A DNA stretch of 58,484 nucleotides from Candidatus Coproplasma avicola (GTDB lineage Bacteria; Bacillota; Clostridia; Christensenellales; Borkfalkiaceae). Below are positions 1,268 through 46,563 of this stretch, one piece after another; within the stretch, counting starts at the first letter, position 1, and the number at the start of each line of letters is the position of its first letter. The notes under the pieces were generated by a model. The model made no database searches. It was given only the letters and a program-made list of their open reading frames with translations, and was not told the DNA's origin. Location of the stretch: contig DVHK01000076.1 of NCBI GenBank assembly GCA_018712135.1, forward strand, positions 1-58,484, read 5' to 3'. Made by a program: the position numbers and the translations under genes.

Positions 1268-2392
1268 TTACAACATTATCTCTCTTCTGTTTTTTACAAC
1301 TTTATTGAGTATGCGCGCCGCTTCGACAACCTCTTCCATAGTATTTTCGGGACTGAACGAAAGGCGCAGAATACCGTCGGCATCACTCTCCGGAACACCG
1401 CACGCAAGAATGACGCGCGAATAGCGCTTTTTATCGTTGGACGAACATGCCGAGCCCGTCCCGATTATAAGCCCTTCGTCGTCCGCCTCGTGCAGAATGG
1501 TTTCGCCGCGCACGCCGTGAGCGCTGATTGTCAGAATATACGGCGAACCGCCTTCGGGCGATATCCGCCCGAAAAGATTCTTGTCAAGTCTGTTCCAAAG
1601 CTCGTCGCTGAGCGCGCGCACATGATTATAATTTTGAGCCATTGCGGCGTACCTTTTTTGAGCAGCAAACGCAAACATCATTATGCCGAAAACATTTTCG
1701 GTTCCGCTGCGCATTCCGCCTTCCTGTCCGCCGCCGTAGATAAAGGGCTTTAAAGGCAGCTTTTTACGCTTAATCAGCGCGCCTGTGCCCTTCATGCCAC
1801 CTATTTTGTGTGACGAAGTACTATACAAATCGACAAAATTCCCAATTCTAAATGGAATTTTCCCGAAAGCCTGCACTCCGTCCGAATGAAAGAGCGTATT
1901 TTTGTTTATATCCTTTACGCTTTTGGCTATCGCATTTATGTCGTTTACGGCGCCCGTTTCGTTATTTACGTGAATGACCGACACGAGCGAAGTTTTACTA
2001 TCAACCAAAGCCAAAAGCTTTTCAGCATTTACGCTGCCGTCGGCGTTAAGCGGAGCAAAACGCACTTCGATGCCGCGCTGTTTAAGCTCGTTTGCAGCAG
2101 AAAAAATTGCCGAGTGCTCGCCCGTGGTGGTGACGACGTTGCCCCTCCTCCCGCCGCAAAAGAGCGCATGATTATCGGCTTCGGTTCCGCACGACGTAAA
2201 AATCAGCTCGTAATTTTCGTCTGCGACGAGCGAAAGAAAATCTGCGCGCGCCCGCTTTAAAGTAAGGTGCAAATTATAACCTTCCGCGTAGAGCGCGGAA
2301 GGGTTATAATAATTTTCAAAAATATATTGCTTTGCCTTATCGAGGCACTCCCCGTCGGGGCGCGTCGTTGCGGCATTATCCAGATAAATCAT
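1268..2392 (-). CDS. Cysteine desulfurase (NifS/IscS family)
   Basis: MIYLDNAATTRPD, HSDGVQAFGKIPF, SSHKIGGMKGTGAL, TGSACSS active-site loop. Confidence 0.93.
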   Translation of the reverse strand: MIYLDNAATTRPDGECLDKAKQYIFENYYNPSALYAEGYNLHLTLKRARADFLSLVADENYELIFTSCGTEADNHALFCGGRRGNVVTTTGEHSAIFSAANELKQRGIEVRFAPLNADGSVNAEKLLALVDSKTSLVSVIHVNNETGAVNDINAIAKSVKDINKNTLFHSDGVQAFGKIPFRIGNFVDLYSTSSHKIGGMKGTGALIKRKKLPLKPFIYGGGQEGGMRSGTENVFGIMMFAFAAQKRYAAMAQNYNHVRALSDELWNRLDKNLFGRISPEGGSPYILTISAHGVRGETILHEADDEGLIIGTGSACSSNDKKRYSRVILACGVPESDADGILRLSFSPENTMEEVVEAARILNKVVKNRREIML

Positions 2393-12000: not shown

Positions 12001-12933
12001 TTAACTCAAAAAAGTTGTTTCGTCAAGACCAAGCATGATATTCATATTCTGAACTGCCGCGCCCGAGGCTCCCTTGCCGAGATTGTCGAATACGCTGAAA
12101 AGCGTAATTTTATCGTCGCTGCCGCAGACATAAATTTCAAGCTCGTTGGTTCCGACTATTCTATTTGAAGCAAGATAATCGGGAATATCGCTTTCTTTGA
12201 CGATTTTTATATAATTCTGTCTGACATAGTACTCTGCAAAATACTCTCTCAGCGCGTTTACGCCGTACTTTTTGGTCATCAAAGACTTATGGAGCGGCAA
12301 ACATACACACATGCCTGCGTAATAATCGCAAATTATCGGCGAAAATACAGGAGCCGACGAAAGCCCGCATTGCTGCACCATTTCGGGCAGATGTTTATGA
12401 TGCTGCCCGAGGGCGTAGTGTCTGGGAGAGTCGAGCTCTGCACTCCTCTCACCGCTTTCATACTGCGCAATACCCTTTTTACCCGCACCCGAGTAGCCGC
12501 TGAGGGCATGGCAGACAAATGGATAATCGGCGCCAACAATGCCGGCATTTACGAGGGGTGCGACGAGCGTTATAAACCCCGTTGCGTAACAGCCCGGATT
12601 TGCCACCCTCTTTGCAGAAGCAATCTGTGCCCTGCGTTCAGCCGAAATTTCAGGCAATCCGTAAATCCAGCCGTCGCTCGTCCTGTGCGCGGTCGACGCA
12701 TCGATTATGCGCGCGGCGGGGCTATCCACCATTTCAACCGCCTCTTTTGCCGCTGCATCCGGCAGACATAAGAAACTTATGTCTGCTTTGTTCAGACACT
12801 CCCTCCTCGCGTCTGCGTCTTTGCGCAGTTCTTCGGAGAGTGAAATTATTTTGACGTCATTGCGGACAGACAGCCTGTCGTAAATTTGCAGCCCCGTCGT
12901 ACCCTCTTTGCCGTCTATAAAAATGTTATGCAT
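12001..12933 (-). CDS. argC: N-acetyl-gamma-glutamyl-phosphate reductase
   Basis: NIFIDGKEGTTGLQI, ANPGCYATG catalytic Cys, SGYSGAGKK. Confidence 0.94.
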   Translation of the reverse strand: MHNIFIDGKEGTTGLQIYDRLSVRNDVKIISLSEELRKDADARRECLNKADISFLCLPDAAAKEAVEMVDSPAARIIDASTAHRTSDGWIYGLPEISAERRAQIASAKRVANPGCYATGFITLVAPLVNAGIVGADYPFVCHALSGYSGAGKKGIAQYESGERSAELDSPRHYALGQHHKHLPEMVQQCGLSSAPVFSPIICDYYAGMCVCLPLHKSLMTKKYGVNALREYFAEYYVRQNYIKIVKESDIPDYLASNRIVGTNELEIYVCGSDDKITLFSVFDNLGKGASGAAVQNMNIMLGLDETTFLS

Positions 12934-14394: not shown

Positions 14395-15060
14395 TCAGTA
14401 CATGCGCGCAATAAAAGAATATCTTTTAAGCTGCCTTTCATCGGCGCGGTTTGAAGGATAAACCCTGTCGAGGAGCACGTGAAAAGCGGGCGAATGGTCG
14501 TGGTGAACGGTGTGACAGAGTTCGTGGGCGATTACACAGTCCTGCAAATTGCGCGGCAACATCAGAAGCTTGTAGTTGAACGTGATGTTGTTTGCACAGT
14601 CGCAACACCCCCACCTGCCGCGATATGTTCTGAACGATACCTTATTATATTTAAACCCGAACACCCCGGCAAATTCTTTAAACCGCGCGATAAACTGCCC
14701 GCCGAAACAGCCGACATAAATCTTTTTAAGATTCTTTAAATCCTTTGCGCTCACGTAGCAATCCGAAATGCCGTCCTCACCGCCAAGAGACAATTCATAA
14801 AAACGCCCTTCGACGAGAATTTTTTTCATCGCGGTAACTTCGCCGAATTCCTGCCCGACGGCGCGGTTGCGCGCCATGTTCCTTTCTATCCACTTTAACT
14901 TTTCTTGCAGAAAACTCACTATTCTCGCACGCGAAGTACCCAAAGGACACCTGACAGTGACGGAATTATCGTCGGAAATGCTGACGCACATCGATCGCCT
15001 GCGCGCGTAAATAACCTTACAGTTAAAGCCGCAACAATCAAAGCTGTCCAAATTCGACAT
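14395..15060 (-). CDS. YgjP/M48-like metallopeptidase domain protein
   Basis: HELCHTVHHDHSPAFHVLLDRVYP zinc motif; YRGRWGCCDCANNITFNYKL. Confidence 0.85.
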   Translation of the reverse strand: MSNLDSFDCCGFNCKVIYARRRSMCVSISDDNSVTVRCPLGTSRARIVSFLQEKLKWIERNMARNRAVGQEFGEVTAMKKILVEGRFYELSLGGEDGISDCYVSAKDLKNLKKIYVGCFGGQFIARFKEFAGVFGFKYNKVSFRTYRGRWGCCDCANNITFNYKLLMLPRNLQDCVIAHELCHTVHHDHSPAFHVLLDRVYPSNRADERQLKRYSFIARMY

Positions 15061-15769
15061 GTAGCTGAGCCCTCAACTCGCCGCCATTTCTGCACTCGGC
15101 AACCCAACCGCCTTCGGGCAACTGAGATTTATAGAACAACAATTTTTCGCCGCACTTACATTGTTTGATGTATGAAATTCTGAATTTTTTTACCCATTTA
15201 TCTTTAAGTTCATCAACAGAAAAGGCGTCCATCAGCAAATCAGCATATTTTGTATTGTTAGCATGATTATAATGGTCGTAATCGGAATACGAAATTATTT
15301 TTTCGTATGACGGTTCCGTACTGTCGGCGCGCGGAATTTTCCAACTGTTGAAAGACGTCGAGCGAAACTCATTGTATTCAGTATTCACCCCGTCGAATAT
15401 AGCCGACGAAGGAAGGAGCGAAAAAGTAGCCAGATCGACAAGGCACCACCGCGAAGTACCTACCCCTACCTTCTCTTTGCCGATAAAAAGTTCAAAGTCG
15501 CGGAGAACAATCATGTGCTTGGGCTTGATCGGCCAGGTATGAACGGTGAGAACATCGTCGTACTTAATCGGTCTGAAAAGTTCAACGTACCAATTTGAAA
15601 GAATAAAACCTATATTTTTTGGTTGAAGGTCTTTGTAGCCGAAACCGAGCTCATCCGCAGAGAGGCATGCCGACTCCTGCATGACGGACAAAAACGACGC
15701 CGGACGGATTATATCCTGAAAGTCCGCATCGGTATAGCGGAACTCATAATCTTTGGAATGAAGATACAT
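15038..15769 (-). CDS. Acyl-ACP thioesterase family protein
   Basis: Hot-dog fold family pattern: YTDADFQDIIRPASFLSVMQESA, DYDHYNHANNTKYADLLMD. Confidence 0.85.
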   Translation of the reverse strand: MYLHSKDYEFRYTDADFQDIIRPASFLSVMQESACLSADELGFGYKDLQPKNIGFILSNWYVELFRPIKYDDVLTVHTWPIKPKHMIVLRDFELFIGKEKVGVGTSRWCLVDLATFSLLPSSAIFDGVNTEYNEFRSTSFNSWKIPRADSTEPSYEKIISYSDYDHYNHANNTKYADLLMDAFSVDELKDKWVKKFRISYIKQCKCGEKLLFYKSQLPEGGWVAECRNGGELRAQLHVEFGQL

Positions 15770-15890
15770 AGTTTCCTCTTTTTTTCTTTTATATTACCAC
15801 TTTTAAAATATTAAGTAAAACATTTTGAGCAAAAAAGATGGACGAGATAATTATTATGTCTGGCGTAGTACCATTTATTTTGTAATGATA

Positions 15891-15919
15891 TTGACATATC
15901 AGGCATAATGTGGTATAAT
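15891..15919 (+). promoter_or_regulatory. Consensus promoter for the PadR-like gene
   Basis: TTGACA-17-TATAAT. Confidence 0.8.
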
Positions 15920-15946: not shown

Positions 15947-18451
15947 ATGAATGACGAACATGACTTCGAAGAAGAACGCGATGAAGAGCGCGAAGAAGCA
16001 TACGGCGACGAGCAGGAAGAACGGCACGACAAAGAAACTGCCGAACAGTCCGCCCACGGCACGATAAGCGCAGATCTCATACGCGGACATATAAATACAA
16101 TTATTTTACGCACGCTTGACGAGCGCGATAAATACGGATACGAAATTATAAACGAAATCGAGGAAAAATCGCACGGACAGTACACCCTTAAACAACCCAC
16201 GCTTTACAGCGCATTAAAGAGGCTTGAAAGCCAAGGTTATATAAAAGCATACTGGAAAACCGACGAAGTTACCTCGGGCGGCAGAAGAAAGTACTTTACA
16301 CTGACCGAACTCGGCAGAGAGTTTTCTGAGAAAAACCAATCTGAATGGGAATATTCAAGGACGGTTATTGATTCGCTCATATCTGACCGCTCGTTTGATT
16401 TTTCGCGCCCCGCCCCCACTTCCGTAGATTTCAATATTCTTAAAAAATCTGTCACGCGCGTTTACACGGGCGCAGGCAGGGATGCCGCAACGGATTACGA
16501 AGATCAGATTGACGAAAACGTCTGCGACGACGATTATGCAAAAAACGACTATACAAGCGAATACAGCGCCATTGCAAACTCGCAGCTGAGCGAAGAATAT
16601 TCCGGACATGCCGTCAGGGATGTCTTTGTAGAACGGCCTGAACGCATGGAAGTAACCGACGGACAGGATGCAAGCGAAGATCATAACGACGTTCCCCTCC
16701 CGGAACAGGACATACAACAGCAGGAAACGGCCGCAACCGAAAACACCACCGAGGAAATTAACCCTCAACCCGAAGAATCCGCCTCTCAGCAAAGCGACGC
16801 CGACCAGGATAAACAGCCGGCAACATACGTTTTCGGGCAGCCTTTACGCAACGATAACGACGATGCTCCCCCTCTCATTATTAACCAGGAGGGCAGCCAT
16901 CCCATATATTATTTCGGCCAGCAACTAAACGACGACGCAAATCCCAAGGCGCAGCCCGATGCCGCGCAGCAAAATCAGCCCGTCACACCCGCTCAACCGT
17001 CCGAAACACAACAACCGTCAGACAGTTATACGGAACAGGACTCGCAGGACATCCGACAGCAGGAACAACCTATTCCTCCCGTTCAGCCGATCGCACCCGA
17101 ACCTGCCGCACCGTACCCCGCGAAACCAATGGCACCCGTTCAGCCAATCATGCCTGAACCTGTAACCAATTATCAGGAGCCGCCTGCACAACCTATTGCA
17201 CCTGAACCTGTCGCTCCCTATCCCGCGAGACCAATGACGCCCGTTCAGCCAATCATGCCTGAACCCGCAAACAATTATCAGGAACAAACAGTCCCGCCGA
17301 TTATACAGGAACATACTCCTTCCTACCCCGCACAACCGATGGCACCCGTTCAACCGAATACGGCTGAACAACCCGCCGCTTATCCCACGCCGCCGTTTAC
17401 ACCCGAGGCACCGTTTTATCCACAGCCTATTGCGCCCGCTCCACAACAAGCTCCCGCGCAGGAAAGATATATTAATCCGGATGACATGCCTTATTCGCCT
17501 TTCGGCGGATCTCAGGATTTCCGTATGCCTTATCTACGCACAGATAACACGACAACGGAACAGCAACCAAATCGCGAGCTTTTTGCAACCCAGCCAATCC
17601 CCGAACAACCCGCAGACACGCGCACAGACGAGGAAAAGCGCATTACACACGAAAATTTCGTCAAACTGATGAACGAGCCGATGACAGACAAGAACATCGC
17701 CCCGAATGCAGACGAAATAGACACGCAAAAACTCATCTACACCAACAGACCCGAAACAGAGCGCGATTACAAAAAACTTGTCGGCAACATGTTTGACAAC
17801 ACAATCAAGCGCGGGGGCTCAATGAGGAAACAACAAGGCGATGTTGCGGAAGAACAACCCGAACAGCCTCAGAATATTCCCGCAGAACAATTTATTTCAA
17901 CGCCCGTCACGCCGGAAGCGCCAAAACAGCCGAGAATATCAACATCCTTGGCGACGGAGACGGTCATCGAAAAAGCAAAATTGGACGGCTTGAAAGTAAA
18001 CATTGCCGCAAACGGCGGGACACATACAAAAAGCGCACGGGGAACAACGTTCAACAAAGGCAAGGCATTATTTATAAGTTCAGGCATTGTTGCCGTGATG
18101 ATGCTGATCGAGTTCGGCTTGTGCATGTTGCTTATGGATCGTCTGCGCGTGGGCGCAATGTATCCCGTGACCATATTGCTGATTGCAGTCGCACAACTTG
18201 CAGTTTTCGGCGTGCTTTACGCAACAGGATACGGCAAAGGCAGCGTTCGCCCGGCAACGCACGGTTATATACTTGTGTGCGCAGTGCTTACGATAATAGC
18301 AATAATTATTGTCTGCCTCGTCAGCTTTTTACTCGACGTCAATATGCAGTCGCTCAGGGACATAGCCGTAAAACTGGTCATTCCAGCAGGCACTTCACTA
18401 TTTATCACTGTATTCGGCGTTTGCTATTACTTTATGAGCAGAACAAAATAA
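15947..18451 (+). CDS. PadR-family wHTH protein with long Pro/Gln-rich linker and four C-terminal TM helices
   Basis: Acidic N-terminus; HINTIILRTLDERDKYGYEIINEIEEKSHGQYTLKQPTLYSALKRLESQGYI..GRRKYFTLTELG (PadR wHTH); ~400 aa P/Q-rich; four hydrophobic stretches at C-terminus; start at 15947 with GGAGG RBS. Confidence 0.85.
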   Translation: MNDEHDFEEERDEEREEAYGDEQEERHDKETAEQSAHGTISADLIRGHINTIILRTLDERDKYGYEIINEIEEKSHGQYTLKQPTLYSALKRLESQGYIKAYWKTDEVTSGGRRKYFTLTELGREFSEKNQSEWEYSRTVIDSLISDRSFDFSRPAPTSVDFNILKKSVTRVYTGAGRDAATDYEDQIDENVCDDDYAKNDYTSEYSAIANSQLSEEYSGHAVRDVFVERPERMEVTDGQDASEDHNDVPLPEQDIQQQETAATENTTEEINPQPEESASQQSDADQDKQPATYVFGQPLRNDNDDAPPLIINQEGSHPIYYFGQQLNDDANPKAQPDAAQQNQPVTPAQPSETQQPSDSYTEQDSQDIRQQEQPIPPVQPIAPEPAAPYPAKPMAPVQPIMPEPVTNYQEPPAQPIAPEPVAPYPARPMTPVQPIMPEPANNYQEQTVPPIIQEHTPSYPAQPMAPVQPNTAEQPAAYPTPPFTPEAPFYPQPIAPAPQQAPAQERYINPDDMPYSPFGGSQDFRMPYLRTDNTTTEQQPNRELFATQPIPEQPADTRTDEEKRITHENFVKLMNEPMTDKNIAPNADEIDTQKLIYTNRPETERDYKKLVGNMFDNTIKRGGSMRKQQGDVAEEQPEQPQNIPAEQFISTPVTPEAPKQPRISTSLATETVIEKAKLDGLKVNIAANGGTHTKSARGTTFNKGKALFISSGIVAVMMLIEFGLCMLLMDRLRVGAMYPVTILLIAVAQLAVFGVLYATGYGKGSVRPATHGYILVCAVLTIIAIIIVCLVSFLLDVNMQSLRDIAVKLVIPAGTSLFITVFGVCYYFMSRTK
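17081..17395 (+). repeat. 105-bp (35-aa) tandem repeat in the PadR-like gene, two clear copies and a degenerate third
   Basis: CAGCCAATCATGCCTGAACC at 17141 and 17246; protein repeat APEPxAPYPAxPMxPVQPIMPEPxxNYQE. Confidence 0.75.
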
Positions 18452-18459
18452 ACCATAAA

Positions 18460-18486
18460 CCCCTCTCTGCCCGGAGAGGGGTTTTA
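18460..18486 (+). terminator. Intrinsic terminator after the PadR-like gene
   Basis: CCCCTCTC-TGCCCG-GAGAGGGG-TTTTA. Confidence 0.85.
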
Positions 18487-20351: not shown

Positions 20352-20432
20352 AAAAATTATGACTAAAAATCATAATACAAGCATAAAAACAGTAAAAATC
20401 AATAATTATGTCACACATAGTACTATATATAC

Positions 20433-25093: not shown

Positions 25094-26437
25094 TCATTCC
25101 TCCGTATAGTCGGGAGTGTGACCGAACAGGTCGTATTGGTTACAATTATCTATTATGACGTCGTAATACTCGCCCTGAACAGCCTCGGGGCAATTGAAAT
25201 AAATCTTGCCGTCTATTTCTGGCGCCTGAAAATACGCCCTGCCGACAAAACAACCCCTTTCGTAATCGATTCCGTCGCACAGCACGGTAATTCTTTTGCC
25301 GATAAATTCCGAAAGGTACCTTTGCGAAACTTCACCCTGAATCGCGTAGAGCTTTTTAACGCGCCTGTTTTTTACAGACTGCGCAATCTGCCCCTTCAAT
25401 TTATATGCGGCGGTATCAGGCTCGCGCGAGTAGGCAAAAAAGCCGCAATTTGTAAGTTTTGCCTCTTTGAGGAACGCGCCGAGCGCCTCTGCCTCTTCCT
25501 CCGTTTCAGTGGGAAAACCGCATATAAAAGTCGAGCGAATGGCAATACCGGGAATTTCAGATCTCAGCCGCGCTATGAGCGAAAGATACTCCGCGCGCGA
25601 ACCTTTGCGGTTCATGAGCTTTAAAATTCTGTCCTCGCTGTGTTGGAGGGGAATGTCGATATATTTGATGACCTTGGGATTATCTCGCATTTCGGCGATG
25701 AGCTCGTCAGTTATCGCATCGGGATAGCAGTACAAAAGCCGCACGCTGCCGATATTTTCGAGCGCGGTCAGCATTTTAATTAGCTCGACAATGCTTTTTT
25801 TGCCGTACAAGTCCTCGCCGTAGCGGGTTACATCCTGCGCGACGAGAATGAGTTCGGATATATCGCCGAGAGCCGTAGCTTCTTCGACAAGCTGTTCCAT
25901 GAGATAGCTTACATACCTGCCGCGTATTTTGGGTATGAGACAATACGTGCAGTAATTATTGCAGCCGTCGGCAATTTTTAAGTACGCGTAATGACAGGGC
26001 GTTGTAAGCACCCTGTCAGTCGCTTTGCTATTATCGCCTTTTCCGACAAAATTTACCCTTTGACCTTCGTAAGAAAGCTGTAATGCCTCGAAAAACCTGT
26101 CGTAGTCGTTTATACCTAAAAAGACGTCGGCTTCGGTAAGTTCCGGAAAGGTCTCCTGCACATATTTTTGCGGAAGACAGCCCGTAATCACGAGTTTTTC
26201 AAGTCTGCCGTTCTTGTATGCGGCGCAGTCGAGCACGGTTTCGATAGCTTCGCGCCGCGCCGAATTGAGGAACGCGCAGGTATTTACTACCAGAACCTGC
26301 ACGTCTTCAAGCTCGTTGCTGACGGTGCAGCCGTTTGCGCGGATAATGGCGAGAAGCTTTTCACTGTCAACTCTGTTCTTGTCGCAGCCGAGCGAAATGA
26401 CGCCGTATATTTTTGAATGTAAATCAGTCATCCACAT
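25094..26437 (-). CDS. rimO: Ribosomal protein S12 methylthiotransferase RimO
   Basis: SLGCDKNRVDSE, radical-SAM IADGCNNYCTYCLIPKIRGRY, C-terminal TRAM region. Confidence 0.93.
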   Translation of the reverse strand: MWMTDLHSKIYGVISLGCDKNRVDSEKLLAIIRANGCTVSNELEDVQVLVVNTCAFLNSARREAIETVLDCAAYKNGRLEKLVITGCLPQKYVQETFPELTEADVFLGINDYDRFFEALQLSYEGQRVNFVGKGDNSKATDRVLTTPCHYAYLKIADGCNNYCTYCLIPKIRGRYVSYLMEQLVEEATALGDISELILVAQDVTRYGEDLYGKKSIVELIKMLTALENIGSVRLLYCYPDAITDELIAEMRDNPKVIKYIDIPLQHSEDRILKLMNRKGSRAEYLSLIARLRSEIPGIAIRSTFICGFPTETEEEAEALGAFLKEAKLTNCGFFAYSREPDTAAYKLKGQIAQSVKNRRVKKLYAIQGEVSQRYLSEFIGKRITVLCDGIDYERGCFVGRAYFQAPEIDGKIYFNCPEAVQGEYYDVIIDNCNQYDLFGHTPDYTEE

Positions 26438-29400
26438 CTCCGTAAATACGCGTAAACTCGTCGAGGGAGAGCAATACCTTCCTCGGCTTGGAGCCTTCCG
26501 ACTGTGTTATGTAATTCATATTTTCCATCCAGTCTATAATTTTGCACGCCTTTACATAGCCTATGGGGAAGCGCCTTTGGAGCATTGATACGGACGCCTG
26601 ATTGCTTGTTACGCAGAATTTAAGCGCCTGAATATACTTGTCGTCTATCTTTCCGTCGCCTTCCACAGAATCGGCGTTGCCGCCGTCGTCAGGTTCCTCA
26701 ACGGTATTTATGAAATCTGAAACGCTTTGATCAAAGTACGTTTCGTTATTCTTCTTGACGAAGTCGGTTACAGCCTGAACTTCCTCAGATTCTATAAGAC
26801 AGCACTGAATGCGCATCAGGTCGGGATTTTGCGCCGATCGATAGTACATATCGCCCGCGCCGAGCAATTTTTCAGCGCCGCCGATATCAAAAATAGTACG
26901 CGAATCGTCAAACGAGTTTACCTTGAAACCTATGCGGGTGGGAAGGTTAGACTTTATAAGACCTGTTATGCAGTCTACCGAAGGGCGCTGCGTTGCGAGA
27001 ATGAGGTGAATGCCGCAGGCGCGCGATTTCTGCACGAGCCTGATTATGCGGCTTTCGACATCCTTTTTGCTCTGCAACATGAGGTCGCCGAACTCGTCGA
27101 GGATGATGACTATTTTGGGCAACTTTTCCTCGCCCTCGGGAAGGTGAGCATTATACTCGTTGAGATTTTTAACGAGCGTTCCCGAAAGAGTCATTTCTTT
27201 GAAGAGCGTGTAGCGACGCTCCATTTCTTTTATAGCCCAATTCAGAGCTTTTATCGCCTTATCGACATCGGAAATTATTTCATTGATAATAAGGTGAGGC
27301 AGATTTTCGTAAGAAATAAATTCAGACTGCTTGGGGTCAACGAGAATAAAGCGCAGTTCATCCGGCCCGTACTTGTAGAGCAAGCTTATTATGAGCGCGC
27401 TCAGGCAGACGCTTTTACCCGAACCTGTGGTACCTGCAACCAGAAGGTGAGGCATTTTGGTTATATCGGGGCAGATCGGTTTACCCTCCACATCCTTGCC
27501 TAGCGCAAACGTAAGCGTATTGGGTTTGCAGTTGACAAACTGACTGCTTCGGATCATGGTTTTAAGCCCGACGACCGTGCGGTGGCCGTTGGGAACTTCG
27601 ATAGAAATTGCGCCCTTGGAGTAATTGAGGTAAGCGGTTACATTTTCTTTCATGAGCGCCATTGCGATCGCCTCGCGGTAGCGCATCGCCGATTTGATGT
27701 TTGTTCTGTCCTCGATTATTACATCGTAGCGCGTTATCGCAGGCCCGATCGTAACTTCCGATATATGTGCGCCTATGCGGAAATTTTCGAGCGTTTCAAT
27801 GATAAGCGCTTTATTTTCCTCGATTTCGCTGCGATTGGCGTTATTGTCCTCGGGATAATCTGCGAGGAGATCGAGCGTCGGGCGGACATACTTTTTCCAT
27901 ACGTGCTTAGGCTTTTCGGGCGCAGGCGCGGGCGCGCGTTCTGCCTGAACAGGGCGGGACTGCGGCGGCTGCGCGGCACTCTCCCTCGGTTGGGACGTGC
28001 GGGAAAGTCCGGTAGATGGCTCGACGGACGGATTGCGGAGCCCCGCAACGCCGAGATCGGGGTCGGGAGCATCGTCGAGATAATCGTCATCATCGCCGTC
28101 GAACAGATTTTCCCTGTCTTCGCGAACCGAAGGAAGGCGGGAAACATCGGGTTTTACCTCGTCGGAAATATTTGAATTTGAAGGGCTGAAAATACTTCTC
28201 AGGTCGTTATTTCTGCCCTGTTTGGGTTGTGTTTGCTGGGTAGGAGCCTGCTGCTCATTCTCCTTATCAGAATTATCGGCTGACCCCTCCCCCACTGCTC
28301 TGTCGGGCATACGCACCGCGGGTTCGTCGGGGCGCGCAAGCCTGTCATTTTCGTGGACATGCGGCACCGAAGGACGTTCTTCCGTATTGCGCACTATTTC
28401 TTCGCTGCTGTCCGTGCGGCGCATAAACTGTCCGTCATTTGCAGATGCCGGGTTTGTTTCCGAGTTTAACTGTTGAGTCTCGCCGCGGCGAATTTCGCCT
28501 GTCGGTGGAGTTACCTGTCCGAAATCGCGGTCAAGCCCCCTTGAAAAATTCTCGGGCGGGCGGACAGCAGCGGAGGCATCCTCACGCTCTGCCGGACGGT
28601 CATAATCGCGCGGAGGCTGTTGGGGAAGGCGCGTAAAATCTGCCTGCGAGCTGTTTTCAGGCCGACCGAAAACGGGTCGGGAAATATCGCCCGATCCTCT
28701 GCGGGAATTATCCTGCTCCGGACGCCCGAAAGATGATTTCTCCGGCTGAACGGGACTATCGTAATCTTCTTCGTACCCGTACGTACCGGAAGAATAATCA
28801 TCTCCGCCGTATTCTTCCGCTGACGAATCGTAATCGTCTTCATCACCGTAATCACTGTCGGGAACGTAAGCGTCGAGATTATCGGCGGGCTTGTCGCCGT
28901 AGATATAGGACGGTGCAGAAGGCTTGCTTTCTCGCTTTTCAACATCATCGGAATAGCTTTGGGTATAGCTTTGATTGTAGCCCTGAACCTGGGGTTGCTG
29001 GGGCTTAGCCTTAGATTTACCGCCGAGCGAAAAACTGCTCAGATAATCGCCTTCGTTGTGCACTGGATGATTGAAATATGAGTCATCGTTGAAAATCATG
29101 TTCCTGCGATAACTTTCTGCGGCAAATTCGCCGTTTTCAAACAAAATTTTCCTGCCGAGATTTTCGGGTGCAAATCTGTCGTCGTCGCGCTCGGGCTGAG
29201 GCTCCGGCTGCTGATAATAGGGTGACAAAGGTTCAGGCTGATAGGCAAAATACTGAGGCTGAGCGGGCTGTGGCACAGGCTGGGCAGGCTGCTGAACGGG
29301 CTGAGCGTAGTCCGCAGGAAGAGGCGCATAAGGCTGCGCCGCCTGTGTTCCGTCCTGAACAGGATAGTATGCATTCACCGTGCCGTAGCCGCCTTCGGGC

Positions 29401-30035
29401 GCATAACCCGGCTGCGGCGCCTGCTGTACAGTTTCCCCCTGCTTTGCGCCCTTTGTGCGTTTAGCCCTGGGCGACGTTTCGCCGCGGGCAATCTTTTCGC
29501 GGCGGATGACGAGATAGGAAACATACCCGAACAACAACATGAGGACGGCGAATACGACATACGCGCCCGTAAAAGTTATTCCGCGTGCGACGGGATAGAC
29601 TACAAGCCCTGCCAGAGCCCCGCCAAAGGTGTATCCGGCATAGCCTGCCTCGGCGGCGGTGTAGCACTGACCGAGGTAAGCGCCGTAGTTTTCCATATTG
29701 AAATCGCGCGTGGCGACCGCGTGAAATAGCATGAAGAACATTGCTATCGTCAATCCGACGAAGACAGCGACGGAAGGACGGAAGGCGGGCTTCTTTTCAA
29801 AGACGAGCCATACGCCGAGACATGCGAGCGCCGCCACCGCCAGATAGCTGGCATAGCCGAATGTGCCGTACATAAAGGCGCATACAGCCGCTCCGAGCGA
29901 TGAAAACACCGTGTTATAAGTCAGCAGAATCAGCACGAGAAGCGCACTGAAAAGCAGTATAGTCATACCGAGAGTTTCGCGCGTGAAAATATATGAATGG
30001 TTGTTGTTATCGTTTTTTCTCTTCACGAAACACAC
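26424..30035 (-). CDS. ftsK: FtsK/SpoIIIE DNA translocase with long disordered linker (true start may be GTG at 30026)
   Basis: Four N-terminal TMs, VAGTTGSGKSVCLSALI, IILDEFGDLM, ATQRPSVDCITG, C-terminal gamma wHTH. Confidence 0.95.
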   Translation of the reverse strand: MCFVKRKNDNNNHSYIFTRETLGMTILLFSALLVLILLTYNTVFSSLGAAVCAFMYGTFGYASYLAVAALACLGVWLVFEKKPAFRPSVAVFVGLTIAMFFMLFHAVATRDFNMENYGAYLGQCYTAAEAGYAGYTFGGALAGLVVYPVARGITFTGAYVVFAVLMLLFGYVSYLVIRREKIARGETSPRAKRTKGAKQGETVQQAPQPGYAPEGGYGTVNAYYPVQDGTQAAQPYAPLPADYAQPVQQPAQPVPQPAQPQYFAYQPEPLSPYYQQPEPQPERDDDRFAPENLGRKILFENGEFAAESYRRNMIFNDDSYFNHPVHNEGDYLSSFSLGGKSKAKPQQPQVQGYNQSYTQSYSDDVEKRESKPSAPSYIYGDKPADNLDAYVPDSDYGDEDDYDSSAEEYGGDDYSSGTYGYEEDYDSPVQPEKSSFGRPEQDNSRRGSGDISRPVFGRPENSSQADFTRLPQQPPRDYDRPAEREDASAAVRPPENFSRGLDRDFGQVTPPTGEIRRGETQQLNSETNPASANDGQFMRRTDSSEEIVRNTEERPSVPHVHENDRLARPDEPAVRMPDRAVGEGSADNSDKENEQQAPTQQTQPKQGRNNDLRSIFSPSNSNISDEVKPDVSRLPSVREDRENLFDGDDDDYLDDAPDPDLGVAGLRNPSVEPSTGLSRTSQPRESAAQPPQSRPVQAERAPAPAPEKPKHVWKKYVRPTLDLLADYPEDNNANRSEIEENKALIIETLENFRIGAHISEVTIGPAITRYDVIIEDRTNIKSAMRYREAIAMALMKENVTAYLNYSKGAISIEVPNGHRTVVGLKTMIRSSQFVNCKPNTLTFALGKDVEGKPICPDITKMPHLLVAGTTGSGKSVCLSALIISLLYKYGPDELRFILVDPKQSEFISYENLPHLIINEIISDVDKAIKALNWAIKEMERRYTLFKEMTLSGTLVKNLNEYNAHLPEGEEKLPKIVIILDEFGDLMLQSKKDVESRIIRLVQKSRACGIHLILATQRPSVDCITGLIKSNLPTRIGFKVNSFDDSRTIFDIGGAEKLLGAGDMYYRSAQNPDLMRIQCCLIESEEVQAVTDFVKKNNETYFDQSVSDFINTVEEPDDGGNADSVEGDGKIDDKYIQALKFCVTSNQASVSMLQRRFPIGYVKACKIIDWMENMNYITQSEGSKPRKVLLSLDEFTRIYGDVDD

Positions 30036-34076: not shown

Positions 34077-35660
34077 TTATTCATCGCCGTGACGTCCTAA
34101 ATTTTTGAGAAGGCGGGCAAATTTAGGAACGCTTTTATCGGCGGGGCGCTCGATAGTCACATCCTCGGAAGGCTGCGAAAAATGAGGCTGCGCAGGCATG
34201 GAAGGCATGGGCACATAACCGCCGGCAGACTGCGAAGGCTGTGCAGGCTGAGACTGGCTTTGCTGTGCCTGCGGAGCCTGAGGCGCCTGGGGAATACGGG
34301 GCGACTGAGGCATCTGGGGAGCCTGCGGCATCTGAACGCCTTGGGGCGCAGAAGCGGGCTGAGCAGAAGTCTGTTGCGAACTCTGCGCCGCCTGCGAAGG
34401 CTGTGCGCTGCGCTGGGGCTGCTGCATCGTCTGCGGCTGCTGAACGGGCTGACCCTGCTGGGGATATGCGGGAGCCTGTCCGTAAGGCTGACCCTGCTGG
34501 GGATAGTATTGCTGCTGACCGGGCGCCTGATAGAGGGGCGAAGCCTGATAAGGCGTGCGCTGACCGAAATAAGGATCGTTGTTTATGGGCATACGCGAAG
34601 AATAGCTCTGGTTTGTATAGAGCTGACCTGTGGTGTAAGCCCTCTGCTGCTCCTCTTCCCTCTTGTTATCAAATCCGGGGAAGCCCGTGGCAATGACGGT
34701 AATTTCAACTTCGTCCTGAACGTTGGGATCGATGCGCGCACCGAAGATGATGTTTGCCGAGGCGTCTACAACGCTGCGCACGAGTTCGGCAGCATCGGCA
34801 ACTTCGTCGAAGGTAAGATCGGTGCCGCCGACGACGTTGAGGATGACGCCGCGCGCGCCCTCGATAGTCGTTTCAAGCAGCGGGCAGTTTACCGCAACGC
34901 GGACAGCTTCGATAATTCTGTTGTCGCCCTTGGCAACGCCCACACCGAGGTGAGCAATACCCTTGTCTTTAAGGACGGTTTTTACGTCGGCAAAGTCGAG
35001 ATTGATGAGCGCGGGATTGACGATGAGTTCGGCAATACCCTTTATGCCCTGTTTTAAAATTTCATCGGCGACGCGCAGAGCTTCCACCATGGGAGTGTTC
35101 TTCTGCACTACCGTTTTTATCTTGTCGTTTGGAATGATCACGAGGGTATCGACATATTTTTTAAGATTTTCTAGTCCCTTTACCGTGTTTTCCATTCTCT
35201 TTTTGCCTTCAAAGGCAAAAGGTTCGGTTACGACCGCAACGGTAAGGATCTTCATGTCCCTCGCAATTTTAGCGATTACGGGAGCGGCGCCCGTACCCGT
35301 GCCGCCGCCCATGCCTGCCGTTATGAACAGAAGGTCGGTGCCCTTGATGAGTTCGGTAAGGACATCCTTGCTTTCTTCCGCGGCAGCTCTGCCTATATCG
35401 GGATCGGCGCCAGCGCCGAGACCCTTGGTGAGCTGAGCGCCTATCTGCACTTTGTTTGCGCAGGGCGAAAGAGCGAGAATCTGACTGTCGGTATTGACGA
35501 CAATATATTCGGCGCTGTCGATTCCGGCTTCAAGCATACGGTTGACGGCGTTGTTGCCCGCGCCACCTACACCTATTACCTTTATTTTAGCCTTGCCCGA
35601 AATGTTGTTTACGGGAAGAGGCTGATCGTTGTACTGGTCGTTATACTGATCGTTGAACAT
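34077..35660 (-). CDS. ftsZ: Cell division protein FtsZ with extended Q/P-rich C-terminal linker
   Basis: GVGGAGNNAVNRM, GGGTGTGAAPVIA, C-terminal peptide VPKFARLLKNLGRHGDE. Confidence 0.97.
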   Translation of the reverse strand: MFNDQYNDQYNDQPLPVNNISGKAKIKVIGVGGAGNNAVNRMLEAGIDSAEYIVVNTDSQILALSPCANKVQIGAQLTKGLGAGADPDIGRAAAEESKDVLTELIKGTDLLFITAGMGGGTGTGAAPVIAKIARDMKILTVAVVTEPFAFEGKKRMENTVKGLENLKKYVDTLVIIPNDKIKTVVQKNTPMVEALRVADEILKQGIKGIAELIVNPALINLDFADVKTVLKDKGIAHLGVGVAKGDNRIIEAVRVAVNCPLLETTIEGARGVILNVVGGTDLTFDEVADAAELVRSVVDASANIIFGARIDPNVQDEVEITVIATGFPGFDNKREEEQQRAYTTGQLYTNQSYSSRMPINNDPYFGQRTPYQASPLYQAPGQQQYYPQQGQPYGQAPAYPQQGQPVQQPQTMQQPQRSAQPSQAAQSSQQTSAQPASAPQGVQMPQAPQMPQSPRIPQAPQAPQAQQSQSQPAQPSQSAGGYVPMPSMPAQPHFSQPSEDVTIERPADKSVPKFARLLKNLGRHGDE

Positions 35661-35714
35661 GTAACTTTACCTCCCTGAATGGCGCAGACCGCGCGCCGCA
35701 CATATGAGTTTATT

Positions 35715-36842
35715 TTATGAGTTTGAGCTGTCGCCGAGCGCCGCATCGAGCAGGCTTAAAAGCGAAGAGAACCTGGGTTTATCGTAGTAAGGAACCCTCG
35801 GCGATATTGCTTCCACCGAGCAGACGAGACGGTTCGACAGATGTTCTGCGGTGCCGCGGATTACCTTTAAACCTTCACCCGTGACGTAGACCGGTCTGCC
35901 CGTCATATCTTTTTCGGCAAAAGTCTGTATGCACTCCTCCACCATCTGGCAGATTCCGTCCAACCCCTCGCGTATTATGTCGCGCAGGGTCGCCGTGGAG
36001 TAGCTGTAATTTACGTTGTTATATCTTATTTCCTGAACAGAGGTCAGCATTTCCTTGGCGTTGAGATTTACGCGGGAGAGAAATTTTGTTGCGACCTCGA
36101 AGGGTATATTGAGCTCGTCCATCATGAGCGCGGCGATATGACCTATGCCGACGGAAAATGCCTGGCTGTAAACAATGCCGTTTCCGCACGCGACCGTGTA
36201 TGTGGAAGAGATGTAATCGATATCGAGCAGGGCGACGTATGAGTCGCGCATCTGCGGTTCAAAAAGATAATTTATTTCGGCAAAAGGCGAAGGTATGAAT
36301 TTGAGCCGCACGCCCGGACAGACAGGTTTGAACGCCAGGCGCACACATTCGGCAAATGAATCTTTGCACAGATACCAACTCATTTTTGCCCTTAAACTGT
36401 CGGACACGTAGCCGACGGGACTGACGACCCTGCGGGTATCCGAAAGAACGTAATAGACGGGACTGCTGTAAATGACGGTAAAACCGTGCCCGTCGGACGG
36501 GCGTGACATAGCGGCGACGTTATTGACGTCTGCCTCCCTTATGCGCTGAGGCGCGGCAAAGGAGATTGTATCGTCGGTGACCGCCGTCTTTAAAAATTCG
36601 CCGGGAATACCGACATAAAAACGGTTGATGCCGCCGCCCGCCGCAGCTATCGTATTTTTCAACACTTCAGCAACCGCGGAATTAAAAGACCCCACATCCA
36701 GAAGTTCGCCGTCGGCATAGCCGTCGTAAGCGCAACTGTATTTACTTTTTATGATAAAGGTATTGTTTACTCCCCTTTCGCCGACGGCAGCACACACCTC
36801 CGACGAACGGATATCCAACACCGCTACGCTTTTGTTCCGCAC
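35715..36842 (-). CDS. ftsA: Divergent FtsA-like protein (probable GTG start at 36842; ORF call extends to 36881)
   Basis: SVAVLDIRSSEVCAAVGE, SHS2-like region, position directly upstream of ftsZ. Confidence 0.8.
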   Translation of the reverse strand: MRNKSVAVLDIRSSEVCAAVGERGVNNTFIIKSKYSCAYDGYADGELLDVGSFNSAVAEVLKNTIAAAGGGINRFYVGIPGEFLKTAVTDDTISFAAPQRIREADVNNVAAMSRPSDGHGFTVIYSSPVYYVLSDTRRVVSPVGYVSDSLRAKMSWYLCKDSFAECVRLAFKPVCPGVRLKFIPSPFAEINYLFEPQMRDSYVALLDIDYISSTYTVACGNGIVYSQAFSVGIGHIAALMMDELNIPFEVATKFLSRVNLNAKEMLTSVQEIRYNNVNYSYSTATLRDIIREGLDGICQMVEECIQTFAEKDMTGRPVYVTGEGLKVIRGTAEHLSNRLVCSVEAISPRVPYYDKPRFSSLLSLLDAALGDSSNS

Positions 36843-36861
36843 TTTTTTATCCCGTTTACGC

Positions 36862-36879
36862 GCGGGCGGACGCGCCCGC
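36862..36879 (-). promoter_or_regulatory. Strong hairpin in the predicted ftsA leader
   Basis: GCGGGCG-GACG-CGCCCGC between predicted TSS and GTG start. Confidence 0.5.
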
Positions 36880-36893
36880 AAATCTATAATAAT

Positions 36894-36922
36894 ATTATAT
36901 AATAGTGTTCTGTAAATGTCAA
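36894..36922 (-). promoter_or_regulatory. Consensus promoter for ftsA-ftsZ
   Basis: Minus strand TTGACA-17-TATAAT. Confidence 0.8.
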
Positions 36923-36934
36923 CAAATATGATGC

Positions 36935-36970
36935 AAAAAAGCGGCTCGCCGATACATTTTGAGCCGCCTT
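36935..36970 (-). terminator. Intrinsic terminator between ftsQ and ftsA
   Basis: Minus strand GCGGCTC-N13-GAGCCGC-TTTTTT. Confidence 0.8.
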
Positions 36971-36997
36971 GAATGCAAATTGGTACAACAATATATT

Positions 36998-37777
36998 TTA
37001 ATAACCGAGCTCGGAATTATAGTATGCCGCATAGGGAGCAGACGATGAACCGCTGCGGCTGACAGCGTATATCGAGCCGCGCAACTTCTGGCTCTCGCTG
37101 AGCCCGTCATAAATTTCGTACACTGCCGAAATCTTCTGTTCGGCATACTCGTCATAGTCGTAAATGACGATACTCAATCCGCTGTAAAGCGAAAGAGTTA
37201 TATTGTCCGAACCGAGAATAGCGTCGTGACTGACCGAAGCCGAGCGGACGAGGTTGCGAAGCGACCCGAAACTTTGGTTGAAATAGCCGCAAATCTGCAC
37301 GACATAAGAAAAACTTTCATCCTGAGCATACACGAGCACGTCGGGGCTGTCGTCGGCAGGATTTAAATTTTCCTGCCGCGAGAGCATATAAACGCCCTCC
37401 GAATCGTAAACATCGAACCCGCCCGACGAGTTGGGGCGACAGAACTGTTCAACCCGCTCTTTAAGAACTATGTCGAGCGTGCTGGGAAAAACTTTGTTGC
37501 AGCTTTGAACGCTTATAAAGCGCCCGCTGACGCAGCTTTCGACATCCGCCATGCTCAGAAGAACGAGGCTCTGCCCTTTGAGGGCGTTTAAGTTGTCAGC
37601 CGACGTAACATAGTCGGCATAAGTGCGCGAAGACGACGCCTGACCGTCCTCGGAATAATATATGTATTCGATATTGACGTTGCGTACCGAAAAGATTACG
37701 CCTACGCCGACGATTACCGCAACGCAGAATATGAGCGATAAAATTACCGCGACAATTTTTCTTATGTAACCATTCAT
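36998..37777 (-). CDS. ftsQ: FtsQ/DivIB-like cell division protein
   Basis: Single N-terminal TM, POTRA-like region, position in dcw cluster. Confidence 0.75.
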   Translation of the reverse strand: MNGYIRKIVAVILSLIFCVAVIVGVGVIFSVRNVNIEYIYYSEDGQASSSRTYADYVTSADNLNALKGQSLVLLSMADVESCVSGRFISVQSCNKVFPSTLDIVLKERVEQFCRPNSSGGFDVYDSEGVYMLSRQENLNPADDSPDVLVYAQDESFSYVVQICGYFNQSFGSLRNLVRSASVSHDAILGSDNITLSLYSGLSIVIYDYDEYAEQKISAVYEIYDGLSESQKLRGSIYAVSRSGSSSAPYAAYYNSELGY

Positions 37778-37781
37778 ACTT

Positions 37782-39038
37782 TCAGATGCCTACGCGTTTG
37801 ATTTTTGCGCCGAGGGAGGACAGCTTGTATTCAAAGCCCGAATACCCCCTGTCGATATGGGAGATATCTAAAACTTCGCTGTCGCCTTCCGCCGCGAGCG
37901 CGGCGATGACGAGAGCCGCTCCTCCCCTTAAATCGTGAGCGACGACGGCAGCCCCTTTAAGTTTTTCGACGCCGCGCACAAAGGCGCACCTGTCGATAAC
38001 CGTTATGTCGGCGCCCATTTTGCGCAGCTCAGGGACATATTTGAAGCGCGTTTCAAAGAGGTTTTCGGCAATTATCGAGTTGCCCGCGCACACGCAGCAC
38101 AGCGCCGTCATCTGCGCTTGCAAATCCGTGGGAAACCCGGGGTAAGGCTGCGTTTCGACACTCTTGACCGACACGGGGCGTTTATCGCTCTTTATATATA
38201 TTTTATCATTTTTTATTCGCAGTTTGCAACCGTTTTCCCGAAGTTTATGCAAAAGCGAGCTTAAATTTTCGGCATTTACGCCGCTTAGCTCCACATCGCC
38301 GCCGCACATAGCCGCCGCGATGAGAAAAGTGCCCGCCTCTATTCTGTCGGCTATGGGCTGATAAACCGACCCGCCGAGCTTTTGCACACCCTCTATGACG
38401 ACCGTCCCCGTTCCCGCACCCCTTACCTTTGCGCCCATGGAATTTAAAAAATTCTGCAAATCTTCGATTTCGGGTTCGCGCGCGGCATTTTTTATAGTCG
38501 TTACGCCCTCCGCCTTTACTGCGGCGAGCATTATATTTTCGGTTGCGCCCACGCTGGGACAGTCGAGCATGATTTCATTGCCCGCAAGCTTGTCGCAGAC
38601 GCAGTTTATATAGCCGTTGCTTTCGGTAATTTCAACGCCCAGTCTCTTCAACCCCGTGAGGTGAAGGTCGACGGGGCGCAGACCTATGTCGCACCCGCCG
38701 GGATAGGCGATTTTTGCTTTGCAGAATCGCGAAATGACGGAACCGAGCAAAAAAACAGAAGAGCGCAGCTCGTGCGCGAGCGCCCTGGGAATTTCGCAGT
38801 TGTCGGCAGACGAGCTGTCAATTATTATGTCGTTGCCCGAATACCGGGCGCTGCAGCCGAGACAGCCGAGTATGCGAACCATGTTGCGCACGTCGGTAAT
38901 GTCGGGCACGTTGAGCACGGTTACGGGCTCGTCTGTGAGCACCGATGCCGCCAGAATGGGCAGCACGGAGTTTTTTGCCGTCTGAATGCGCACGCCCCCT
39001 TCGAGGCGGCGACCTCCGCTTATTATGTACTTATCCAT
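37782..39038 (-). CDS. murA: UDP-N-acetylglucosamine 1-carboxyvinyltransferase
   Basis: YPGGCDIGLRPVDLHLTGLKRLG with catalytic Cys; IADRIEAGTFLIAAA. Confidence 0.95.
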   Translation of the reverse strand: MDKYIISGGRRLEGGVRIQTAKNSVLPILAASVLTDEPVTVLNVPDITDVRNMVRILGCLGCSARYSGNDIIIDSSSADNCEIPRALAHELRSSVFLLGSVISRFCKAKIAYPGGCDIGLRPVDLHLTGLKRLGVEITESNGYINCVCDKLAGNEIMLDCPSVGATENIMLAAVKAEGVTTIKNAAREPEIEDLQNFLNSMGAKVRGAGTGTVVIEGVQKLGGSVYQPIADRIEAGTFLIAAAMCGGDVELSGVNAENLSSLLHKLRENGCKLRIKNDKIYIKSDKRPVSVKSVETQPYPGFPTDLQAQMTALCCVCAGNSIIAENLFETRFKYVPELRKMGADITVIDRCAFVRGVEKLKGAAVVAHDLRGGAALVIAALAAEGDSEVLDISHIDRGYSGFEYKLSSLGAKIKRVGI

Positions 39039-39164
39039 ATATGCTCCGTTTATGTAAAATGCCGAGCAGCCCGAACTATATTTTTTCAGGCTGCTTTACT
39101 TTATTATATGGATTTTTACAAACCGTTGTTAATTGACCCGCCGCGCCCTTTTTATCGCGGCGTT

Positions 39165-40271
39165 TTAATTATTGGCAGACACGTTATATAAAACGCCCAT
39201 GGAGGTCATGGTAATTATCAGCGAAGTGTTGCCGCTGCTGACGAGGGGCAGCGGCAGCCCCGTCGGCGGGATCGTGCCGCTGACGACGAGGGCGTTAACT
39301 ATAACCTGTATGCCGTAGACGAGCGTTATCCCCGCAGAGAGCAGATAGCCGAACGAGTCCCTGCACCTGCGCGCGACAGTTATGCCCCGCCAGATCATGA
39401 AAAGACAGACGGCGAAAAATATCAGCAGCCCGAAAAACCCCAACTCTTCGCCCATGACCGACATTATGAAGTCGCTTTCGGCGAAAGGCAGAAAGCGGTA
39501 TTTCTGCGTCGAATTGAACAGTCCCACCCCGAACCAACCGCCGTTTCCGAGCGCATAGAGCGACTGTATGAGCTGATACCCCTCGTCCCGCGGGGAAGCC
39601 CAAGGGTCGATGAACGCGCTCAGCCGCTGCAACCTGTAAGGTTCTAAAATGATGAGCACAGGCACGGCGATTATGCAGGGCACAAGCATAAAGGCGAACG
39701 CCTTTAAGTTTGTGCCGCTTAAAAAGACCATGGCGAGCATGAGAATGCCCACGCACATGGTTATAGACATATTTGGTTCGACAATTATCAGCAGACAGAA
39801 GATTATGCCGAGCGCGAGGACGGGCGCAACGCCCTTTATGGAGCGCGCGGCACCGTAGTACTGCGAAAAGTGTGCGGCGGCGAACAGCACAAAGGCATAT
39901 TTAGCAATCTCAGACGGCTGAATGGTAAAAGAGCCCAGACCTATCCAGCGCGTAGCGCCGTAGTTTGTCACGCCCACGCCCGGCACGAACACGAGCGCGA
40001 GCAAGATTACAGAGATGACGGCGAGCGGAATTTTGAGTTTTGCCAGCTTTTTGTACGGCACAAAAGCCGCGCAGCCCATGGCGAGCATTCCCACCACCAC
40101 CCCGACGACCTGCTTATTTACGAAATACATTGCATCGCCGTACTGCACCTGCCCGACGTAAGAGCTCGCCGAATAGATCATTATACAGCCGAACACCGCC
40201 ATACCCGCCGTGCAGACGAGAATGGAGATATCGCCGGCTTTTTTAGGTCTTTCAAAAAGCGCCTTAATCAT
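39165..40271 (-). CDS. ftsW: FtsW/SpoVE SEDS glycosyltransferase (start MIKALFERPKK, overlapping murD end)
   Basis: SEDS topology; SEIAKYAFVLF, SDFIMSVMGEELGFFG, IPPTGLPLPLVSSGNTSL. Confidence 0.93.
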   Translation of the reverse strand: MIKALFERPKKAGDISILVCTAGMAVFGCIMIYSASSYVGQVQYGDAMYFVNKQVVGVVVGMLAMGCAAFVPYKKLAKLKIPLAVISVILLALVFVPGVGVTNYGATRWIGLGSFTIQPSEIAKYAFVLFAAAHFSQYYGAARSIKGVAPVLALGIIFCLLIIVEPNMSITMCVGILMLAMVFLSGTNLKAFAFMLVPCIIAVPVLIILEPYRLQRLSAFIDPWASPRDEGYQLIQSLYALGNGGWFGVGLFNSTQKYRFLPFAESDFIMSVMGEELGFFGLLIFFAVCLFMIWRGITVARRCRDSFGYLLSAGITLVYGIQVIVNALVVSGTIPPTGLPLPLVSSGNTSLIITMTSMGVLYNVSANN

Positions 40272-41613: not shown

Positions 41614-41619
41614 TTTACC

Positions 41620-44003: not shown

Positions 44004-44013
44004 AAAATTCCTC

Positions 44014-45708: not shown

Positions 45709-45765
45709 TAACCTCTTTTGTAAAACTGTTAAAGAAAATTTACCTTTATTAATTTTTAAATCTCC

Positions 45766-46539: not shown

Positions 46540-46563
46540 TTTCTTTCACTCCTTATCGCTTTA

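Follow-up and report, generated by a model that had tools for sequence, protein, structure and literature searches.

A PadR-domain protein with a membrane domain as a candidate membrane-anchored binder of oriented terminus sites in gut Clostridia

On a contig of Candidatus Coproplasma avicola, one gene encodes a PadR winged-helix domain that is joined, through a long disordered linker, to four transmembrane (TM) helices, and a short site that lies just upstream of its promoter recurs in oriented groups around the chromosome terminus of related genomes. From the sequence comparisons described here, this is probably a membrane-anchored terminus-binding protein, which would resemble MatP/matS in its working while being unrelated to it. 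In the mechanism that we propose, the PadR domain, probably as a dimer, would bind a dozen or more copies of TTATGTSTGACATAGTACT around dif and the Xer gene, spread over roughly 10-20% of the chromosome; anchorage would come from the four-TM domain, and reach to nucleoid DNA from the long disordered linker. The terminus would in this way be tethered at the membrane, plausibly close to the site of division, so that Xer (and FtsK) could work on dif and the termini would be the last to separate, with the site just upstream of the gene's own promoter making feedback control by autoregulation probable.

The gene lies in a window of 58,484 nucleotides, which is the whole stretch of DNA that was analysed, and all genomes used for comparison are MAGs whose ORFs were called mechanically. 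A ribosome-binding site (ggagg, rated good) precedes the ORF at 15947-18451 (+), and 15947 is the better start because the alternative in-frame ATG upstream, at 15908, falls inside the promoter, between its -35 and -10 boxes. The gene, its control elements and the segments of its product are as follows:

15891-15919 (+), sigma-70-type promoter, TTGACA-17-TATAAT with TG before the -10 box, score 12/12
15947-18451 (+), gene for the PadR-linker-4TM protein, 834 aa (ORF, ribosome-binding site, homologues)
15947-16063 (+), N-terminal acidic stretch, aa 1-39 (translation)
16064-16441 (+), PadR winged-helix domain with C-terminal helix, aa 40-165 (PF03551; model pLDDT 81; PadR/LmrR structures)
16442-18016 (+), P/Q/E/A-rich disordered linker, aa 166-690, of hypervariable length in relatives (composition; relatives)
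17747-17812 (+), short conserved linker segment, aa 601-622, RPETERDYKKLVGNMFDNTIKR (ExDYK..LY consensus in the alignment)
17954-17998 (+), conserved juxtamembrane helix, aa 670-684 (alignments; helix in the model)
18071-18427 (+), four-TM membrane domain, aa 709-827, an order-specific family (hydropathy; model pLDDT 84; profile matches)
18457-18484 (+), stem-loop resembling an intrinsic terminator

This agrees in most respects with the preliminary description of the DNA, since the ORF, the PF03551 match and hydropathy bear out an 834-aa protein with an acidic N-terminus, one PadR wHTH and four hydrophobic helices, and the near-perfect promoter and the terminator that it had been given are both there. 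The P/Q/E/A-rich linker is also present, with a high disorder propensity (aa 166-690 contain 15% P, 11% Q, 9% E, 9.5% A and 0% W), but is about 500 aa long rather than the ~400 aa first estimated.

At the N-terminal end, a Pfam scan matched aa 53-126 to PF03551 (PadR) with E = 1.1e-19 and 70.6 bits, against a cut-off of 27, and the domain model, in which helix 82-106 is seen in the monomer, is a wHTH with a C-terminal helix whose fold matches PadR and LmrR with E values down to 8e-11 (best structure matches: 9qbc, 1xma and LmrR). By these matches the wHTH domain is a true member of PF03551; the same scan gave no match between the protein and MatP, finding PadR instead. At the other end, hydropathy places the four TM segments at aa 712-730, 733-751, 775-793 and 808-826, and the last 173 aa form four long helices in an AlphaFold model with a pLDDT of 84. 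Charges are distributed as five positive and no negative before TM1, two positive and no negative in the TM2-TM3 loop, and two positive and no negative at the C-terminus, a positive-inside pattern that suggests that both ends of the protein are cytoplasmic. The external loops are tiny and an external sensor domain is absent. Searches for relatives of the membrane domain in Pfam, among PDB sequences and among PDB folds yielded chance-level matches only. The fusion of a DNA-binding domain to TM helices is the architecture by which transmembrane one-component regulators are recognized, a point to which we return below.

The protein is widespread among relatives of its host. It was matched in 183 of the 201 genomes of its own taxonomic family, some matches being weak and limited to the PadR part, and a profile of the membrane domain was positive in 114 of 297 genomes from some 20 families of the order, nearly always with one copy per genome; a class-wide search with the membrane domain returned 11 positive genomes out of 341, every one of them within the order. 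Named relatives include Candidatus Coproplasma species and other uncultured gut Clostridia. Order-level members mostly have the PadR-linker-4TM organisation as well, and the occurrence of fused, full-length homologues in many independent genomes rules out an assembly chimera of two separate genes, which the preliminary description had named as a possible refutation. Relatives are 51-95% identical to the query in their PadR domains and 10-49% in their membrane domains, and the stretch between the two ranges from 96 to 568 aa among 21 family members, with the short ExDYK motif and the juxtamembrane segment kept within it. In genera g3 and g9 (L046 9074-11722, L047 9189-11933, L037, L038) the linker is charged and rich in E/Q/A/L/K instead of P/Q, and is probably, judging by this composition, a long coiled coil; since it differs in kind, the type of linker evidently changes while the end domains stay. 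Among the individual loci, the first ATG of L083, L086 and L099 is located after the PadR region, and L097 (8100-9695) has the same four-TM domain and an adjoining xer gene, with an N-terminus unlike the standard PadR domain.

Common to the regions upstream of the gene in several genera is TTATGTSTGACATAGTACT, an imperfect palindrome with the core TATGT-N3-ACATA and a GTACT tail. A pattern search allowing up to 3 mismatches found five copies in the window, against 0.01 expected:

1804-1822 (+), weaker terminus motif copy with 3 mismatches
12215-12233 (+), terminus motif copy within argC; genomes G122 and G149 likewise have a site in their argC-sized ORF
15854-15872 (+), terminus motif copy ending 18 bp before the -35 box of the PadR-4TM gene, a probable operator, position-conserved among relatives
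20406-20424 (+), terminus motif copy in the rny-nadE intergenic region
52571-52589 (-), terminus motif copy in the orientation opposite to the other four

The last of these is a strong copy that is reversed even though the window's GC skew does not change sign at this point, and it stands as an unexplained exception. A further, weak match on the minus strand of the promoter spacer (15890-15908), with a score of almost zero bits, was excluded from the count. The genome to which the window belongs has 17 copies and its control 0, and finding five of the 17 within this 58-kb contig has a chance probability of p = 4e-4. Five near-complete genomes of the genus have 11-24 copies each, against 1-2 control matches. 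In G064, G149, G134 and G122 the copy preceding the gene matches the motif perfectly, and its position is conserved across genera, whether the divergent gene is an acyl-ACP thioesterase (g1, g5, g10, g11) or another gene (g9). One whole genome of another genus, G028 (g10), has 77 motif copies on many contigs, several-fold above its relatives and still in blocks that each have a single orientation.

In all five near-complete relatives the sites are concentrated in one region, as expected of a MatP/matS-like terminus site system, and we assigned this region to the terminus by skew, coding strand and dif/Xer. In G122, all matches to the pattern but one lie at 208-331 kb of contig C1, with the matrix scan adding a copy at 359 kb, and in G122, G149 and G064 both GC skew and the main coding strand change from plus to minus inside the site cluster, a switch that is the usual signature of a terminus. 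The cumulative skew maximum falls at 279957 (G122), 263581 (G149) and 592039 (G064), and within 0.6 kb of it in each of these genomes is a dif-like inverted repeat, TTCGTAAAA-N6-TTTTACGAA, which adjoins a gene for a Xer-type tyrosine recombinase and lies 155-180 bp from a motif site:

G122, contig C1, 280099-280122, dif-like repeat
G149, contig C1, 264131-264154, dif-like repeat
G064, contig C1, 592343-592366, dif-like repeat

The Gram-positive dif consensus gave no good match, and the repeat was found instead through the sequence common to the skew maxima. A similar repeat and a Xer gene were found in G088 (g3) and G028 (g10); in G075 (g9) a Xer gene lies within 9 kb of the skew maximum and a dif-like repeat was not found. 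Some sites are farther out, up to 226 kb from dif. An origin-centred arrangement of the ParB, RacA or Noc kind, which was considered first, is ruled out by GC skew marking a terminus and by the location of dnaA on other contigs (C6 in G122, and not the cluster contig in the other four relatives either).

The gene itself belongs to the same region, being about 72 kb (G122), 58 kb (G149) and 44 kb (G064) from dif. The window contains neither xer nor dif; elsewhere, in 16 of the 20 order-level loci as well as in the family genera g6, g7, g14 and g18, one locus of 6-20 kb holds both a Xer gene and the PadR-4TM gene, often only 80-460 bp apart, and these Xer genes are 47-56% identical to the terminus Xer of G149. 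This association is independent of the motif. As to the conserved neighbours that the preliminary description proposed to check, xer lies near the gene in most of the other families examined in the order, and the thioesterase neighbour varies. Within the window, 8-30 kb from the PadR-4TM gene, translations named by eye include an FtsK/SpoIIIE-like translocase (26424-30035, 1203 aa) that has its own long disordered linker after the TM part, and an ftsZ/mur/mraY/ftsW-like cluster for division and cell wall (34077-47502). FtsK acts at dif in other bacteria, and the ftsK/division neighbourhood may therefore be meaningful, although the gene order rny-recA-pgsA-ftsK is common in Firmicutes.

The sites are not only clustered but oriented, reading '-' before the terminus and '+' after it. 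Across six genomes from four genera, with dif as the reference (in G075, the Xer start), 59 of 70 strong sites agree with a flip at dif (p = 4e-9) and 11 are opposite; the best single flip accounts for 63 of the 70, a value never reached in 20000 random trials, and with the skew maximum as reference 44 of 52 sites in five genomes agree (p = 4e-7). Because relatives share sites by descent, these p-values are too small; the pattern nonetheless recurs in four genera. The point that gives the best flip lies 8-32 kb to one side of dif in G122 and G149, and on contig C7 of G028, which has no informative GC skew, the orientation changes between 57.4 and 61.7 kb, an interval that includes dif at 60.5 kb.

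This polarity is the chief reason to weigh, as the main rival to a tether, a polar replication-fork trap, in which oriented sites would stop forks leaving the terminus and the membrane anchor would be an added feature; known fork traps are RTP/Ter in Bacillus subtilis and Tus/Ter in E. coli. Two opposing oriented groups about dif are what such a trap would have, a likeness to the RTP layout and not homology. Also counted in favour of a trap is the absence of RTP itself (PF02334): the Pfam scan of the protein gave no match to it, and a search of 25 genomes of the genus, whose control recovered B. subtilis, gave no hit. The layout further recalls that of the ter sites of B. subtilis, next to which rtp lies (PMC13220808), and the dimers of PadR and RTP are alike in topology and organisation (PMC3506622). 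A fork barrier, however, has no need of a membrane anchor and a long linker, 11 of the 70 sites face the wrong way, and two genera have sites whose symmetry is unsuited to polar arrest. In these genera, g7 and g14, whose PadR domains are about 51-55% identical, the gene is preceded by TTATGTCTGAYATAAT or a close variant that lacks GTACT, although not in every genome; these sites are nearly symmetric palindromes, present in 6-18 copies per genome against 0-2 in the control (overlapping reads of the palindrome being counted on both strands), many of them on the gene-bearing contig. Overall, we regard a fork trap as unlikely.

What connects the protein with the sites is that the number of motif copies tracks how well the PadR domain is conserved: it is high in genera g1, g3, g5, g9, g10 and g11, and close to control in g2, g4, g6, g8, g12, g13 and g15-g17. 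The diverged genera g7 and g14 give indirect support as well, since there the variant element both precedes the gene and recurs in the genome. Outside the family, the original motif is well above control in families f18, f19 and f32, and is not above control in families that do not have the protein (f11, f17, f21, f23, f33). Half-sites of the form ATGT/ACAT suit PadR proteins. From this we infer that the PadR domain probably binds the terminus sites. Some other protein might instead be the binder, the PadR-4TM gene merely having one such site upstream, and the imperfect co-occurrence speaks for this, as families f3, f6, f14, f16 and f24 have the protein with a motif count not above control. 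It is hard to reconcile, however, with a perfect upstream copy in four genomes and its conserved position across genera, with counts that are high where PadR is well conserved and near control where it has diverged or is missing, with the fit of the half-sites, and with a gene-xer association that holds irrespective of the motif; this reading strikes us as the least probable of those considered.

A membrane-bound one-component regulator of the BcrR/ToxR type, which would sense the envelope and regulate a group of genes in the terminus region together with its own, would explain other features. PadR proteins are transcription regulators, one site lies just upstream of the gene's own promoter, about 40% of sites are between genes against about 10% non-coding DNA, and a divergent acyl-ACP thioesterase adjoins in several genera. 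Yet about 60% of sites in G122, G149 and G064 are inside ORFs, compared with a coding fraction of roughly 90%, so that they are not restricted to promoters and, if the motif is the binding site, do not have the promoter location expected of one-component regulators; regulation gives no reason for an oriented layout centred on the terminus, the neighbouring thioesterase is inconstant and the external sensor domain is absent. We consider such a regulator improbable. The thioesterase (15038-15769 in the window) shares the intergenic region with the gene in g1, g3, g5, g10 and g11 and not in g9 or g18, and regulation of this divergent gene is ruled out as the function by the inconstancy of the neighbour. 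The preliminary description had hesitated between a sensor of membrane signals and a chromosome-to-membrane tether, with the terminus link going unseen; the sensor is disfavoured by the tiny external loops and by sites that are not promoter-focused, and the tether is strongly and independently supported by a repeated site that is concentrated at the terminus and mostly intragenic and by the position of the gene in the terminus region, next to xer in most other families of the order.

Membrane tethering of the terminus is the reading that we prefer, with membrane insertion, tethering, autoregulation and site binding by the protein all being predictions from sequence. It has to accommodate a polarity, seen in most genera, that a tether would not need, the motif-less families f3, f6, f14, f16 and f24, the 11 misoriented sites of 70, the distant sites and the 77 copies of G028. 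With slightly better than even confidence, we would extend it to the proposal that, across a large part of an order of gut Clostridia, an integral-membrane DNA-binding protein attaches oriented terminus sites and dif/Xer directly to the membrane. If true, this would be a site-specific terminus organiser unrelated to MatP, ZapT, RTP or Tus, and joining terminus DNA to the membrane through a single protein would be a new solution, in which a transcription-factor fold has been recruited for chromosome architecture. Holding of the terminus at the division site is known in few groups only (MatP-ZapB in enterics and Vibrio, ZapT in Caulobacter), and we know of no earlier terminus system with a built-in transmembrane anchor; our literature search found no paper connecting PadR with the replication terminus. 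Site-specific terminus proteins are thus an already known functional kind, and it is the protein family, its architecture and its mode of anchoring that appear to be new. The hypervariable linker offers a natural series on tether length, and with the gene and the dif-like site identified and the sites listed, the idea can be tested at once.

Among known systems, MatP/matS offers the closest parallel in working, as it too combines a short, repeated, terminus-confined site that has a palindromic core with a proposed link between the terminus and the division site or membrane. As described in individual reports, matS is 13 bp long with 23 copies in 800 kb (PMC3330122) and MatP interacts with lipid membranes (PMC6538776); MatP occurs only in enterics and Vibrio (PMC7188993). 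Protein and site are nevertheless unrelated to those described here, MatP depends on ZapB and is not integral to the membrane, and matS is without orientation. With RTP/Ter the likeness is in a winged-helix dimer, here a predicted one, that has one C-terminal helix for dimerisation, in the topology that PadR shares with RTP (PMC3506622), in oriented imperfect inverted repeats, and in the location of the gene and a site in the terminus region close to dif; the ter sites of B. subtilis, nine in number and likewise imperfect inverted repeats, cover about 10% of the chromosome, and rtp adjoins them (PMC13220808). RTP, however, is small and soluble, its site sequence is unlike ours, the g7 and g14 sites are near-symmetric, and fork arrest by the PadR-4TM protein is only hypothetical. 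ZapT, a MerR-type protein that acts at the Caulobacter terminus through sites preferentially in ORFs (PMC7188993), is a protein of a transcription-factor family that links the terminus to the division machinery and thus a precedent for a 'regulator' with a terminus job, although it is MerR and not PadR, soluble, and works via ZapA/ZauP. ToxR, CadC and BcrR share the arrangement of a DNA-binding domain at one end and a membrane domain at the other, but have their sites at the promoters of a few targets, whereas the sites here mark the terminus; a survey of transmembrane regulators makes no mention of PadR (PMC10269533). Typical PadR proteins, finally, are small and soluble, whereas here the PadR domain is fused to a disordered linker and a four-TM domain.
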